From the NCBI RefSeq assembly GCF_028550435.1, contig NZ_JAQQKV010000002.1, positions 372,001-436,000 of the forward strand: a stretch of DNA of 64,000 nucleotides. The letters run 5' to 3'. The notes under the pieces were generated by a model. The model was not told the DNA's origin. It searched no databases and worked only from the letters and a program-made list of their open reading frames with translations. The translations under genes were made by a program, and so were the position numbers. Below, one piece after another: positions 43,380-55,288 of this stretch. Source of the DNA: Asticcacaulis machinosus. Lineage in GTDB: Bacteria > Pseudomonadota > Alphaproteobacteria > Caulobacterales > Caulobacteraceae. The first letter of the stretch is position 1. Each line of letters opens with the position of its first letter.

Positions 43380-43393
43380 TTAGGTTCCTTAAT

Positions 43394-43525
43394 CTCCTCC
43401 CCTGTTTACGGGGGAGGTGGCAGGACAAATTTTTTGGACTGACGGAGGGGGCAATTACGGTGGGGCTGCCCCCTCCGTCTTTTGCTAAAGCAAAATCCAC
43501 CTCCCCCGCTATGCAGGGGAGGAGA
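43394..43525. repeat. GC-rich palindromic repeat, copy A (leuC-leuD gap)
   Basis: About 130 bp made of nested inverted repeats: outer CTCCTCCCCTG with CAGGGGAGGAG, next GGGGGAGGTGG with CCACCTCCCCC, and inner GACGGAGGGGGCA with TGCCCCCTCCGTC. A segment of about 40 bp reappears inverted in copy B at 44974-45012. It fills the entire gap between leuC and leuD. Confidence 0.85.
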
Positions 43526-43527
43526 AG

Positions 43528-44934
43528 CTAGGCACTTTGTAAATAGGTTCTGGGGTCGGTGATGTGGCCCGCAATAGCCGACGCCGCGGCGGTAGCCGGT
43601 GAGGCCAGAACGGTCCGCGCCCCCGGCCCCTGACGACCCTCGAAATTGCGGTTGGAGGTCGATACCGCCAACTGGCCAGGTTGCACAAAATCGCCGTTCA
43701 TGGCGATACACATCGAACAGCCCGGCAGACGCCATTCGGCACCGGCATCAGTGAAGATCTTATCCAGCCCTTCGGCCACCGCTTCGGCGCGCACCTGCTC
43801 AGAGCCCGGCACGACCAGCATCCGCACGCCTTCGGCGATATGGCGGCCCTTCATAATCTCAGCCGCCGCCCGCAGATCCGCCATACGGCCATTGGTGCAG
43901 GAACCGATAAAGACGACATCGACCTTGGCCAGCCCACGGGCGTCACCGCCACCAAAGTGCATATATTTCAGAGCCTTGGCTTCGTTCTCATTCGACGCCA
44001 CCGGCACAGCCTGAGAGATGGGCGCGCCCTGATCTGGCGTCGTGCCCCAGGTCGCCATAGGCTCAATTACAGACCCGTCGATGGTGATTTCGTCATCGAA
44101 TACAGCACCGTCGTCGGATTTCAGCTTCAGCCACTCAGTGGCGGCGGCCTCATAGTCGGACGGGACGTAAGCCCGCCCGCGCAGCCACTCAATCGTCTTT
44201 TGATCGGGTGCTATCATGCCACAGCGGGCGCCGGCTTCGATCGACAGGTTACAGACCGTCATGCGCCCTTCCATATCGAGCGCGTCGATCACCGGCCCGC
44301 AATATTCCAGCGCATAGCCGGTGCCACCACCGAAACCGAGGCGATTGATGATGGTCAGCGCCACGTCCTTACCCGACACACCGGCCTGCAATTCACCGGT
44401 CACGGTAATCCGCATGGTCTTGGGCTTGCGCTGGGCCAGACACTGGGTCGCCAGAACGTGACCGACCTCAGAGGTGCCGATGCCAAAGGCGATGCAGCCA
44501 AACGCGCCGTGGGTCGAGGTATGGCTGTCGCCGCACACCACCGTCATGCCCGGCTGGGTCAGGCCCATTTCCGGTCCCATGACGTGGACAACGCCGCGGT
44601 TTTCCGAGCCCCAGCCAAACAGCTTCACACCGTGATTTTTGGTGTTGCGCTCCAAGGTTTCGACCTGATTTTTGGCGTCTGCCGTGAAATAGGGACGCTC
44701 ACCTTTTTCATTGGGCGGCAGGGTCGGGGTCGAATGGTCGAGTGTGGCAAAGGTACGATCCGGACGGCGGACTTTTAAGCCTCGTTCTTCGATCGCCGAA
44801 AAGGCCTGCGGTGAGGTGACCTCGTGGACAAGATGCAGGTCGATATAAAGCACAGCCGGGCGGTCAGCGCTTTCATCCTCGACTATGTGTTTTTCCCATA
44901 CCTTATCAAATAAGGATTTTGGCTGGTCTGACAT
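43528..44934 (-). CDS. leuC: 3-isopropylmalate dehydratase large subunit
   Basis: A 468-residue aconitase-family [4Fe-4S] enzyme. LFDKVWEKH at the start, [36 protein letters not shown] (cluster Cys) and [11 protein letters not shown] (two further cluster Cys) are typical. I place the start at ATG 44934 ([10 protein letters not shown]); a frame extending to 44997 reads through a palindromic repeat ([10 protein letters not shown]) and is not protein-like. Confidence 0.97.
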
Positions 44935-44954
44935 CTTGGATCGTCCTGATATTT

Positions 44955-45113
44955 CTCCTCCCCTGCATCGCGGGGGAGGTGGATTTTGCGTTAGCAAAAG
45001 ACGGAGGGGGCACTACTCGCGCAAATGCCCCCTCCACCACTTCGTGGTCCCCCTCCCCCGCAACATTCAAGTGCGCTATCGCTTCGCTACTTGAGCGCTG
45101 CGGGGAGGAGAAG
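44955..45113. repeat. GC-rich palindromic repeat, copy B (ilvE-leuC gap)
   Basis: About 160 bp with outer arms CTCCTCCCCTGC and GCGGGGAGGAG, internal GGGGGAGGTGG / CCCCCTCCCCC and GGAGGGGGCA / TGCCCCCTCC. It also contains a TTCAAGTGCGC hairpin near its end. The 44974-45012 part matches copy A in inverted orientation with few differences. Confidence 0.85.
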
Positions 45114-45118
45114 AGGAA

Positions 45119-48192: not shown

Positions 48193-48346
48193 ACCTCCCC
48201 TCTTGGAGGGGAGGGGAACCGCAAGCCCGCTCCTGTGCGGGCTATGCGGTGGTGGGGTAAATCCACAAGCGCGAGCCTGGGAGGCTACCCCCTCTGACAT
48301 CAAAATCAGATTTTAATGTCAGCTCCCCCTGCAACAGGGGGAGTTC
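48193..48346. repeat. Palindromic repeat, copy C (ilvC-ilvB gap)
   Basis: About 150 bp with paired blocks: CCTCCCC with GGGGAGG, AGCCCGC with GCGGGCT, CTGACAT with ATGTCAG and CCCCCTG with CAGGGGG. The sequence differs in detail from copies A and B but has the same building plan and occupies the same kind of position, a gap inside the operon. Confidence 0.65.
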
Positions 48347-50670: not shown

Positions 50671-52536
50671 ATGCCTGCCTATCGTTCCCGCACCACCACT
50701 TTTGGCCGCAATATGGCAGGCGCACGCGCGCTATGGCGGGCGACCGGTATGACCGATTCTGATTTCACCAAGCCGATTATCGCGGTCGTCAACTCCTTCA
50801 CCCAGTTCGTGCCGGGCCATGTGCATCTGAAAGACCTGGGGCAAATGGTGGCGCGTGAGATCGAAAAAGCGGGCGGCGTCGCCAAGGAATTCAACACCAT
50901 CGCGGTCGATGACGGTATCGCTATGGGCCACGGCGGCATGCTCTATTCCCTGCCCTCACGCGACCTGATCGCTGACAGCGTCGAATATATGGTCAATGCC
51001 CACTGCGCCGACGCGATGGTCTGTATCTCCAACTGCGATAAGATCACGCCGGGAATGCTGATGGCCGCCATGCGCCTCAATATTCCGGCTGTATTCGTCT
51101 CCGGCGGGCCGATGGAAGCCGGTAAGGTCGTGTGGCCCGATAAGGACGGGGTGGCTAAAACCCACGCGCTTGATCTGGTCGATGCGATGGTGCAGGCCGC
51201 CGATGACAATATCTCGGACGCGCAGGTCAAGGCCGTCGAAGAAGCCGCGTGTCCTACCTGCGGGTCGTGTTCGGGCATGTTCACCGCCAATTCGATGAAC
51301 TGCCTGACTGAGGCATTAGGATTATCGCTCCCCGGCAACGGTACGGTTCTGGCCACCCACTCAGACCGCGAGCGCCTGTTTAAAAATGTCGGTCAGATGA
51401 TCGTCGATATCACCAAGCGCTATTATGAAGGCAATGACGAGTCGGTCTTGCCGCGCTCGATTGCCTCCTATGCGGCGTTTGAAAACGCCATGCGCCTTGA
51501 TGTGGCGATGGGTGGGTCGACCAACACGGTTCTGCACCTGCTGGCGGCGGCGTCCGAAGCCGGTGTCAATTTCAAGATGGCTGATATCGACCGGATTTCG
51601 CGCACCACGCCGTGCCTGTGTAAGGTGGCACCGGCTACGTCAGATGTGCATATCGAAGATGTTCACCGCGCCGGCGGCATCATGTCGATCCTCGGCGAAC
51701 TGGCGCGTGGTGGCTTGTTGAACACGGAATTGCCGACAGTGCATTCCCCGACACTGGGCCATGCGCTGGCCTATTGGGATATCCGGGTCACCAATGACGA
51801 AGAGGTCGATACCTTCTTCAAGGCCGCCCCCGGTGGCGTGCGCACCACTCAGGCGTTCTCGCAATCCAAGCGCTGGCCGGACCTCGATAAAGACCGCGAA
51901 AAGGGCGTCATCCGCTCGGTCGAGCACGCCTTTACCAAGGACGGCGGGTTGGCGGTGCTCTACGGCAATATCGCCGAAAAAGGCTGCATCGTGAAAACGG
52001 CGGGGGTCGATGAATCGATCTGGAAGTTCTCTGGCCGCGCCCGGGTGTTTGAATCTCAGGAAGACTCGGTTGACGCCATCCTGAAGAACCAGATCAAGGA
52101 GGGCGATGTCGTCGTCATCCGTTATGAGGGCCCCAAGGGCGGGCCGGGTATGCAGGAAATGTTGTACCCGACCTCCTACCTCAAATCCAAGGGCATGGGT
52201 AAGGTGTGTGCGCTTCTGACCGACGGGCGTTTCTCCGGCGGCACGTCCGGCCTTTCCATCGGTCACGTCAGCCCGGAAGCGGGCGAAGGTGGGGCGATCG
52301 CCCTGGTCGAAGAAGGCGATACCATCGACATCGATATCCCCAACCGCACCATTGATCTGCGCGTGACTATGGAAGAACTGGCCCATCGTCGCGCCAAGGA
52401 AGAAGCCCGTGGCCAGGAGGCCTTTACGCCCAAGAACCGCGAGCGCTATGTGTCGGCGGCCTTGCAAGCCTATGCAGCCCTGACCACCTCAGCCGACACC
52501 GGCGCCGTGCGCGATTTGAGCCAGTTGAAGCGGTAA
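50671..52536 (+). CDS. ilvD: Dihydroxy-acid dehydratase
   Basis: A 621-residue iron-sulfur enzyme for the common Val/Ile/Leu step. [55 protein letters not shown] (cluster Cys), [36 protein letters not shown] and [23 protein letters not shown] (catalytic Ser) are all intact. It is transcribed away from the rest of the ilv-leu operon. Length is in the usual range. Confidence 0.97.
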
Positions 52537-52542
52537 GTTAAT

Positions 52543-52593
52543 CCCTCCCCTAATTTTAGGGGAGGTACGCCCAAAGGGCGGGGTGGGGTTAAA
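52543..52593. repeat. Left inverted-repeat element flanking the DUF559 gene
   Basis: A 51-bp element: hairpin CCCCTAATTTTAGGGG, then GGTACGCCC, AAAGGGCG and GGGTGGGGTTAAA. It is the inverted counterpart of the element at 52984-53040 with about four differences. Two of these, at the base of the hairpin loop, are compensatory (A-T here, G-C there). Confidence 0.88.
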
Positions 52594-52622
52594 TTTTGCG
52601 CTGATACCTGTTATTTAACCTC

Positions 52623-52988
52623 ATGGTCGCCCAACCCCAACGCCAATTCGCGCGTAAACTCCGCCAAGATATGTCCCTGCCTGAGCGCTTGATCTGGAGC
52701 CGGATCAAGACGCGGCAAGAAGGCTTGCCCGCCTTTAAGCGGCAGTATCCGTTCGGCCCTTATGTGTTCGATTTTTACTGCGCCAAGGTAAAGTTAGTCA
52801 TCGAGATTGACGGTATGGCGCACAGCATAGGCGACCGTCCCGAACGCGATCAAATAAGAGACGATTTCCTGCGGGAACGCGGCTTTGATATCATGCGCAT
52901 CAATGCTCATGACATACTTGCCGATGTGGATGAAGCCGCCGATGGCATTTATCGGTATGTAACGGCCAGACTGAGCGGAACACTTTAA
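52623..52988 (+). CDS. DUF559 endonuclease-like protein
   Basis: A 121-residue protein of the DUF559 family, related to very-short-patch-repair and PD-(D/E)XK nucleases. LRQDMSLPERLIWSRIKTRQ, FKRQYPFGPYVFDFYC (Asp of the active site) and KLVIEIDGMAH (E-x-D) are the family marks. It stands alone, and its stop codon lies inside the right flanking repeat. The substrate is unknown. Frequent association of such genes with palindromic repeats in related genomes is my impression, not something checked. Confidence 0.88.
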   Translation: MVAQPQRQFARKLRQDMSLPERLIWSRIKTRQEGLPAFKRQYPFGPYVFDFYCAKVKLVIEIDGMAHSIGDRPERDQIRDDFLRERGFDIMRINAHDILADVDEAADGIYRYVTARLSGTL

Positions 52989-53040
52989 CCCCACCCCGCC
53001 CTCTGGGCGTACCTCCCCTGAAATCAGGGGAGGGGTTTAA
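52984..53040. repeat. Right inverted-repeat element flanking the DUF559 gene
   Basis: Inverted counterpart of 52543-52593, with hairpin CCCCTGAAATCAGGGG and the GGGCGTACC and CCCCACCCCGCCC segments. It supplies the TAA stop of the nuclease gene at 52986-52988. Confidence 0.88.
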
Positions 53041-53365: not shown

Positions 53366-55288
53366 CTATATACTCCAATCTCCGTCATACATGCTGAACA
53401 GGTCAGACGCGCGCAGGCGCTCGATAATTTGACCTGCCGCTTCGGCGGCGGTCATGCGCTCGGTCTTGACAACTATTTCGGCATTATCAGGCGCTTCATA
53501 GGGACTGTCGAGGCCGGTAAAGTTCTTAATCTCGCCTTTAAGCGCCTTGGCATAGAGGCCCTTGGGGTCGCGGTTGATGCAGTCCTCAAGCGGGGTGTCG
53601 ATAAACACCTCAAAGAACTCACCGTCCTCGAACAGGTCGCGCACCATCTGGCGATCCGAGGCAAACGGCGAAATGAATGAACATAGCACCACCGTACCGG
53701 CATCGACGAACAGCTTGGCGACCTCACCGACGCGGCGGATATTTTCCACCCGGTCAGCATCAGCAAAGCCGAGGTCTTTGTTGAGGCCGTGACGGATATT
53801 GTCGCCATCCAGCATCATGGTGCGGATGCCACGGGCGTGCAGCTCAGACACCACCAGATTGGCAATGGTCGATTTACCCGACCCCGACAGGCCAGTCAGC
53901 CACAGGGCCGCTGATTTATGGCCGTTCAGTTCCTGACGCGCTTGCTTACCGACCGTCAGATCCTGACGGTGGACATGGGTGGCGCGGTTAAGCCCCTGGG
54001 TGATCATGCCCGCACCGGCCGTCGCATTGGTAAAGCGGTCGATCAGGATGAATGAACCGGTATGGCGGTTAAGCTCATAGGCATCAAAGGCCGTCGGTGA
54101 GGATAGCCGCACATGACACAGGCCGATCTCATTCAGATCAAGCTTATGGGCGCCTTCGTGTTCGAGCGTATTGATATTGATCTTGTGCTCGATACGGGTG
54201 ACGCGGGCCGGAATATAGTTGTGGCCGAGCTTAATCAGATAAGGCCGGTCAACCTGCAGGGCCTCATCGGTCATCCACAGGATATGGGCGGCAAAGCTGT
54301 CGGAGACTTCGGGGCGGGCCTGCGGATGCGCAAACGTATCGCCACGCGCCACGTCAATTTCATCGTTTAACACCAGCGTTACCGCCGTACCGGCGCGGGC
54401 CTCGCTCAGGTCACCATCGGCGGTGACAATGCGCTTTAGCACCGACGATTTACCCGAACCGGCCACAACCAGTTCATCGCCGGGACGGATCACACCCGAA
54501 TGGATCGTGCCGGAAAACCCGCGGAAATCGAGGTTCGGGCGATTGACCCACTGTACACCCATGCGGAACGGTTTCTGGGCATCAACGCTTTCGACATCGA
54601 CGGATTCGAGATGCTCCAGCAGGCACGGGCCGTCATACCACGGCATCAGGTCTGAGCGGGTGATCATGTTCTGACCAAAGCGCGCCGACAGCGGGATGGC
54701 CTGAATAGAGGTGAAGCCAAGCTGATCGGCAAATTCACGGTAAGCCGTCAGGATTTCTTCAAACCGGCCCTGATCGTAATCGACCAGATCGATCTTATTG
54801 ACCGCCACGACCACATGCTTAATGCCCAGCAGGGATGCGATAAACGAATGGCGGCGGGTCTGCGGCAGCACGCCTTTGCGGGCATCGATCAGGATAATGG
54901 CTAGGTCGGCATTGGACGCGCCGGTGGCCATATTGCGGGTATATTGCTCATGGCCCGGCGTATCGGCGACGATGAACGAGCGCTTCGGCGTGCTGAAAAA
55001 ACGATAAGCGACATCAATGGTGATGCCTTGCTGGCGCTCGGCCTCAAGGCCATCGACCAGCAGCGCGAAGTCAATATCTTCGCCGGTTGTGCCGTGCTTT
55101 TTAGAATCGCGCTCCAGCGACTGAAGCTGATCGTCAAAGATCAGCTTGGTGTCGTACAGCAACCGCCCGATCAGGGTCGATTTGCCATCATCGACGGAAC
55201 CGCAGGTCAAAAAGCGCAACAGGCTTTTCTCGGTCGCGGCCGCATTTGTGACGGCAGTGGCGGTTAAGGTGGCGGTCTCAAGCGACAT
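53366..55288 (-). CDS. cysNC: Fused sulfate adenylyltransferase large subunit and APS kinase
   Basis: A 640-residue protein. The N-terminal two thirds are an EF-Tu-like GTPase (GSVDDGKSTLIGRLLYDT, DTPGHEQYTRNM, NKIDLVD), activating sulfate with CysD. From about residue 440 an APS kinase follows (LTGLSGSGKSTIANLV, LDGDNIRHGLNKDLGF, GLYAKAL), making PAPS. The fusion is common in alphaproteobacteria. The start lies 74 bp after the cysD stop. PAPS would feed sulfate reduction or sulfation of the surface glycan. Confidence 0.96.
   Translation of the reverse strand: MSLETATLTATAVTNAAATEKSLLRFLTCGSVDDGKSTLIGRLLYDTKLIFDDQLQSLERDSKKHGTTGEDIDFALLVDGLEAERQQGITIDVAYRFFSTPKRSFIVADTPGHEQYTRNMATGASNADLAIILIDARKGVLPQTRRHSFIASLLGIKHVVVAVNKIDLVDYDQGRFEEILTAYREFADQLGFTSIQAIPLSARFGQNMITRSDLMPWYDGPCLLEHLESVDVESVDAQKPFRMGVQWVNRPNLDFRGFSGTIHSGVIRPGDELVVAGSGKSSVLKRIVTADGDLSEARAGTAVTLVLNDEIDVARGDTFAHPQARPEVSDSFAAHILWMTDEALQVDRPYLIKLGHNYIPARVTRIEHKININTLEHEGAHKLDLNEIGLCHVRLSSPTAFDAYELNRHTGSFILIDRFTNATAGAGMITQGLNRATHVHRQDLTVGKQARQELNGHKSAALWLTGLSGSGKSTIANLVVSELHARGIRTMMLDGDNIRHGLNKDLGFADADRVENIRRVGEVAKLFVDAGTVVLCSFISPFASDRQMVRDLFEDGEFFEVFIDTPLEDCINRDPKGLYAKALKGEIKNFTGLDSPYEAPDNAEIVVKTERMTAAEAAGQIIERLRASDLFSMYDGDWSI

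Follow-up and report, generated by a model that had tools for sequence, protein, structure and literature searches.

A DUF559 nuclease gene enclosed by inverted triplex-type repeats as a candidate REPIN/RAYT-like unit

The locus and its two arms

The window considered here is the whole 64,000-nucleotide stretch of Asticcacaulis machinosus DNA that was analyzed. Within it, a gene for a DUF559 nuclease-like protein of 121 aa is enclosed by two inverted arms of 54 nt each, which are 93% complementary and lie 390 nt apart (Table 1). A first-pass annotation, made from the letters of the sequence, had described two 51-bp elements in inverted orientation; the inverted pair stands, while the length does not, the arms being longer and shifted by about 3 nt. 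Its reading of the enclosed frame as a single nuclease-like gene of the DUF559 family was borne out by a profile match of 93.4 bits (E = 1e-26), and the stop codon, TAA at 52986–52988, does fall within the right element. The compensatory base pair that it had noted in a hairpin was also recovered, as two of the four differences between the arms turn an A-T pair of hairpin 1 into G-C (CCTCCCCTAATTTTAGGGGAGG / CCTCCCCTGATTTCAGGGGAGG). Folded as single-stranded DNA, each arm forms two hairpins, with energies of −14.5 and −15.4 kcal/mol and z scores of −3.0 and −2.8. The order of features is a gene that we take from its sequence to be ilvD (50671–52536), the left element, the DUF559 gene, the inverted element, and later a presumed cysN-type gene (53366–55288), likewise named from its sequence.

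Table 1. Positions of the nuclease gene and of triplex-type elements in the window
Feature	Position	Strand	Description
Inverted dimer without gene	43393..43525	.	Same architecture; on one side of leuC
Second element array	44954..45117	.	On the other side of leuC; strict element on + strand at 44954-45009, inverted partner found by eye
Two inverted elements, no gene between	48194..48343	.	Gene-less inverted pair
Left element	52540..52593	+	Hairpin 1 at 52544-52565 (CCTCCCC...GGGGAGG), hairpin 2 at 52568-52580
Left element, third purine segment GGTGGGG	52582-52588	+	Mirrors GGGGAGG; oriented toward the gene
DUF559 (PF04480) nuclease gene, 121 aa	52623..52988	+	Profile match and predicted fold
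Right element	52984..53037	-	Inverted copy of the left element with 4 differences; contains the stop codon of the gene

Bracketing of the DUF559 gene by inverted elements exceeds chance in the window: the arm pair scores 91, a value that none of 2000 random placements across the window reached, the highest score elsewhere being 31. Among the 50 window genes, one other has such an arm pair. This is leuC (43528–44997, minus strand; score 119), a metabolic gene whose two flanking gene-less arrays form an inverted repeat of 83 nt. Because leuC is not mobile and is also bracketed, by dimers, bracketing alone is no proof of a single-gene unit, and the case rests on the locus statistics described below. 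Elements of this kind recur well beyond the locus; their absence elsewhere would have counted against the first-pass annotation. The window contains seven strict elements, and a genome-wide search returned 26 forward matches to the first hairpin versus 1 for a reversed-pattern control, together with 18 strict, E. coli-like triplex motifs versus 0 in the control. An Rfam search gave no match close to gathering level.

Architecture of the elements

A triplex motif is defined as a pyrimidine segment (Y), a complementary purine segment (R1), and a third purine segment (R2) that mirrors R1. In each window element, the CCTCCCC / GGGGAGG hairpin is accompanied by another hairpin, which varies, and, closest to the gene, by the purine-rich third segment GGTGGGG. 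This third segment mirrors the second when A is read as A or T. The same rule governs the genus: among elements with an asymmetric second segment, the third was a mirror only in 60, a direct copy only in 0, both in 18, and neither in 8.

Repeats of this kind, termed BoxC, PIT, or triplex motif (TM), have been known in E. coli since the 1990s, with 23 copies in strain K-12 and more than 260 genomes reported to carry them (Holder et al. 2015, PMC4666352). The cited part of that report assigns them no gene, function, or mode of spread, and states that neither a functional class among the flanking genes nor a link to mobile elements was found. It does describe polymerase arrest at triplex motifs in vitro and instability of the loci that carry them. 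The window elements show the Y-R1-R2 mirror that characterizes BoxC/PIT/TM repeats. They do not match the E. coli-type consensus CCCTCNCCC..GGGAGAGGG..GGGTGAGGG, their core being shorter (CCTCCCC) and different. Judged by layout, the window element is of the same kind as BoxC/PIT/triplex motifs with a different consensus, its hairpins being computed and its triplex predicted from the arrangement of the segments.

The DUF559 protein

The window protein is a single domain, and its match to PF04480 far exceeds the curated cut-off of 20.6 bits. The other Pfam families returned, MTES_1575 and DUF2726, fell below their cut-offs, and Pfam found no DDE transposase domain in the protein. Each of the conserved residues E21, D50, E61, D63, H67, and D76 is retained in 100 to 102 of the 102 proteins from the genus. 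In the 15 computable of 17 orthologous pairs, dN/dS ranged from 0.02 to 0.28, indicating that the nuclease is kept under purifying selection.

AlphaFold2 modeled the protein with a pLDDT of 90.3 and a pTM of 0.82. A Foldseek search with this model placed NGO0050 of N. gonorrhoeae (3hrl), a member of the same family, first and the catalytic domain of I-Bth0305I (3r3p) next (E = 6e-5, probability 1.00), with Vsr lower (E = 0.01). A profile search returned the same first two proteins, I-Bth0305I at E = 0.0013. Based on the model, the window protein is predicted to be a small PD-(D/E)XK/Vsr-like nuclease with a homing-endonuclease-like fold. VsrA, a DUF559 protein of Caulobacter, is genetically responsible for SOS in cells lacking a cytosine methyltransferase (PMC12907096), which implies that a DUF559-type protein acts on chromosomal DNA. 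In the cited part of that work, the authors favor a Vsr-type mismatch repair role.

Association across genomes

Bracketing was tested by comparing the 350 nt upstream of each gene with the reverse complement of the 350 nt downstream, a score of at least 40 counting as bracketed. DUF559 occurs in 23/25 genomes of the genus set, and removal of identical domains reduced 123 hits to 115. Inverted flanks bracketed 81/115 of these domains, compared with 7/360 displaced positions, 39/571 mispaired loci, and 34/115 when tested in direct orientation; the remaining 34/115 domains lie below the threshold. The window genome carries 10 DUF559 genes, most with an inverted hairpin pair of their own that differs by locus. 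Eight of the ten are at or nearly at score 40, with L010 and L004 below.

The whole-genome set contained one genome per species, and DUF559 was present in 125/385 genomes of the class sample and 145/398 of the phylum sample. Among the class and phylum loci, which are the best-scoring ones rather than random draws, 35/57 were bracketed and 22/57 were below threshold, versus 1/109 displaced positions. Loci from a public scan of named genomes, again the best-scoring and not a random draw, were bracketed in 54/76 cases versus 2/284 displaced. This set began as the 80 best loci, of which three were left out for short flanks, and omission of L347 for a run of N changed the count from 55/77 to 54/76. 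The named loci come from Xanthomonas, Dyella, Lysobacter, Mesorhizobium, Legionella, Variovorax, and metagenome bins of other phyla. Among the loci read on named plasmids, 3/7 were bracketed at a score of at least 40 (Sinorhizobium, Sphingomonas, Deinococcus). The flanks of the gonococcal gene NGO0050 carry inverted motifs that score 33, below the threshold.

A complete strict motif was found on both sides of 78/242 loci versus 0/752 displaced positions (genus 36/109 versus 0/358; class/phylum 15/57 versus 0/110; named 27/76 versus 0/284), with 6/115 genus rows and 1/77 named rows left out for short flanks or N. On sides with motifs of a single orientation, the third segment points toward the gene in 153 and away from it in 25. 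DUF559 genes are thus strongly associated with such elements at every level sampled, from the genus through class and phylum to the named genomes; a lack of association would have counted against the first-pass annotation.

Several loci merit separate description. The ycjD gene of E. coli K-12 (L329; 2405-2441, 2596-2620, 2608-2961) was rejected as a bracketed example, as its 5' side fails and both motifs lie 3' only. These two BoxC-type motifs, one of which overlaps the stop codon, enclose an apparent 3' remnant of a second ycjD. At least 80% of the ycjD region is present in 3362/5426 E. coli genomes, and two genomes without it carry a TetR gene and an efflux operon there. In Legionella anisa (L361), the DUF559 arms are about 147 nt, nearly identical, and longer than most, possibly marking a recent copy. 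A tandem cluster (L063/L117, G010:C12) contains several DUF559 genes with elements between them, some in opposite orientation. On a Sphingomonas parapaucimobilis plasmid (L418, 1495-1890), a DUF559 unit is flanked on both sides by a gene for the alpha subunit of NAD(P) transhydrogenase. In several genomes of the genus (loci L001, L044, L048, L079, L137, L047), the unit lies upstream of a deaminase gene that we take to be ribD-like, with in-frame read-through, such that the element encodes a Pro-rich peptide (e.g., PHPNPLP.GGERG) inside a long fusion frame. GIY-YIG genes were dropped as a small-gene specificity control, since they were mostly one long frame per genome, presumably UvrC.

Co-variation and co-occurrence

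Nuclease and element sequences co-vary in the genus. Among the 73 genus genes that scored 40 or more and encode 90 or more residues, protein similarity correlated with element similarity after removal of orthologous loci (rho = 0.239; best of 1000 permutations, 0.169). The correlation persisted when inverted orthologues and same-genome pairs were also removed (rho = 0.241; best permutation, 0.177). For 45/73 genes, the element of the nearest protein ranked in the top tenth.

Gene and motif also co-occur across the class genomes. Defining a strong DUF559 hit by E ≤ 1e-10 and motif presence as at least two strict motifs net of control, motifs were present in 45/97 genomes with strong DUF559 versus 13/288 without it in the 385 class genomes (odds ratio 18, kinship uncorrected). 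Among genomes of at least 3.5 Mb, the corresponding counts were 31/57 versus 7/81 (odds ratio 12.6, kinship uncorrected); the association thus persists in large genomes, and genome size is not its whole cause. Counter-cases occur on both sides, with 52/97 DUF559 genomes lacking a strict motif and 13 motif genomes lacking DUF559. The co-variation of gene and element that the first-pass annotation had proposed to look for is seen at the level of sequence in the genus and of presence in the class.

Alternative alleles, inversion, and dispersal

The flanks of 11 genus units were searched in five close genomes, yielding readable alternative alleles at four sites (A–D). L003, L010, L064, L128, L139, and L089 gave no usable flank pair, and L061 is site A. 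At site A, G000 and G017 carry the unit and G013 carries it inverted, whereas G005 and G020 have one hairpin, AGAACTCCCCCTGTTGCAGGGGGCGTTCT, in its place. At sites B, C, and D, G005 carries the unit; the G000 allele is a lone hairpin at B and D and an array of elements with no gene at C. At a site other than A, the unit occurs in opposite orientations in G003 and G011. A Sinorhizobium plasmid carries a unit between two genes that in Shinella are direct neighbors, without any element. An empty site, about which the first-pass annotation had asked, exists in the form of this clean Shinella allele, as do solo-hairpin alleles (A, B, D). No target-site duplication was identified in the allele alignments of sites A–D.

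No empty allele of the window unit itself was found in this set: in G020, the closest relative, the interval from the presumed ilvD gene to the cysN-type gene contains different cargo, and in G005, G013, and G017 the neighbors differ from those of the window locus. At site A, the sequence distances are most simply accommodated by an old unit that may have flipped once and been lost twice, leaving a hairpin behind, and gene loss fits at least as well as gain. As the simplest history has the unit present in the ancestor of the five close genomes and lost twice, the solo hairpin may be a scar rather than a target.

Among 144 similar genus unit pairs, orthologous units point the same way in 80 and are inverted in place in 3, 1 pair is tandem, and 60 have unrelated flanks. 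The last group shares 67 to 81% identity, so that dispersal has happened, and no recent transposition was seen among the 144 pairs, identity between unrelated sites reaching at most 81%. One apparent case of 90%-identical units at unrelated sites (L086/L090) was rejected, as the two units occupy one site in opposite orientations. The 3' side of a gene that we take to be nrdB is a hot spot in the genus (L222-L246): DUF559 units and unrelated cargo both occur there, G002 has a deletion form that lacks the gene, and G000 has a solo hairpin. Across 25 genomes, in all but 9 of which the gene end was located, this site showed mixed cargo and no clear direction.

Proposed mechanism and alternatives

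We read the 498-bp stretch as probably one unit, consisting of the DUF559 gene and two inward-facing copies of a BoxC/PIT-type triplex motif. The explanation that we favor is a REPIN/RAYT-like selfish element, in which DUF559 would be a homing-type nuclease acting on triplex-motif DNA. The nuclease would recognize its own class of triplex motif and cut or nick the motif DNA. Repair of a break at or next to a motif, either templated by the bracketed copy or guided by short homologies in the arms, would copy, invert, or delete the unit. Templated repair would duplicate the gene, recombination between the inverted arms would flip the unit, and deletion between them would leave one hairpin behind. 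Lone hairpins, inverted dimers with no gene, and arrays would then be non-autonomous products, standing as REPINs do to RAYT genes. We infer both motif cleavage by DUF559 and dispersal driven by that cleavage, since a nuclease acting on the motif is the simplest common cause of paired, inward-facing, co-varying ends, of solo and dimer relatives, of in-place inversion, and of a homing-type nuclease.

A guarding or targeting function appears unlikely in comparison. In this alternative, DUF559 would restrict or remove triplex DNA, or repair blocks at it, and be kept nearby for regulation or by selection, while the motifs would spread by other means, such as replication slippage or recombination. 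Such a function would suit the polymerase arrest and locus instability described in the cited part of PMC4666352, the SOS triggered by VsrA in methylation-deficient Caulobacter, which points to action on the chromosome (PMC12907096, as cited), and the hairpin-leaving loss that fits site A. It has no need, however, for one inward-facing element per side or for matched arms that co-vary with the protein across unrelated sites, and the clean Shinella site set against the Sinorhizobium unit looks like insertion of a whole unit. Guarding explains damage and losses, not paired ends.

Much less probable is that DUF559 genes move by other means and are passengers that land in, or acquire, repeat-rich intergenic hot spots. 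Many insertion sequences land in REP sites; the regions downstream of the presumed nrdB and ilvD genes carry varying cargo among genomes, and elements are dense in this genome, as the seven strict ones in the window illustrate. Against this, displaced positions in the same loci are hardly ever bracketed (7/360, 1/109, and 2/284 in the three sets) and never by strict motifs on both sides, and arms match within a locus better than between loci. Least probable of all is that the hairpins are bidirectional terminators insulating a small gene with no mobile unit: GC-rich hairpins do sit right at the stop codon in many loci, but an earlier study, as related in the cited part of PMC4666352, found neither terminator nor promoter activity for PIT elements, termination needs neither a mirrored third segment nor a matching upstream partner, and alternation with solo hairpins would not be expected.

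On the favored reading of a selfish unit, linking the two partners provides the repeats with a candidate enzyme and DUF559 with a candidate substrate. DUF559 proteins are common and have been proposed as repair enzymes (PMC12907096, in the part cited). Because many unrelated bacteria show this pairing, DUF559 is indicated as the missing partner of widespread and long-unexplained repeats. In a broader and distinctly more tentative form, DUF559 proteins might be the dedicated enzymes of BoxC/PIT repeats across phyla, and the repeats the ends, targets, and relics of a very small selfish element that would move by structure-specific cutting and repair of triplex or hairpin DNA, with no transposase, integrase, or intron. 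The link between repeats and nuclease would itself add a second nuclease class for REP/RAYT-type genome colonists and offer a possible explanation of triplex-locus instability. Both sides can be tested with one protein of about 100 residues, and one family member has a solved structure (3hrl).

Comparison with known systems

Among open-licence papers, we found none linking DUF559 with inverted repeats or with BoxC/triplex repeats. As described in the cited part of PMC4666352, BoxC/PIT/TM repeats share with the present elements the pyrimidine segment, its purine complement, and the mirrored third segment, and they are multicopy, intergenic, often in inverted pairs, and located at unstable loci. 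They were described there without an associated gene, whereas the elements examined here are tied to DUF559 genes. The DUF559/YcjD/VsrA proteins (PMC12907096, PMC1189080, each as cited) belong to the same family as the window protein, and VsrA is tied to the DNA damage response. The difference lies in the role proposed in the cited part of PMC12907096, that of mismatch repair of the Vsr type; neither "inverted repeat" nor "palindrom" occurs as a term in that paper.

With the EDxHD homing endonuclease I-Bth0305I (PDB 3r3p; PMC3943268, in the part cited), the window protein shares the catalytic fold. Unlike that enzyme, the DUF559 unit has neither intron or intein nor an extended DNA-binding region, and its gene is carried by inverted triplex elements. 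A DDE insertion sequence also differs, since the window unit lacks a DDE domain and the site alignments lack a target-site duplication.

The parallel drawn by the first-pass annotation, to REP-associated systems with a different protein family, is upheld by the inverted-pair flanks, the solo and dimer copies, and the presence of DUF559 with no HUH transposase. For the arms inspected by eye, which do not have the CGTC motif as a tag, DUF559 is unlikely to be the missing enzyme of CGTC REPs (PMC3733652, as cited). The REP/REPIN-RAYT systems described in the cited part of the same work differ in that the Y1 HUH tyrosine transposase is absent here, a PD-(D/E)XK/Vsr-like nuclease taking its place, and no GTAG tag was seen. 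They resemble the DUF559 units in their short palindromic repeats, in the inverted pair around a gene, and in the solo and dimer forms found elsewhere.
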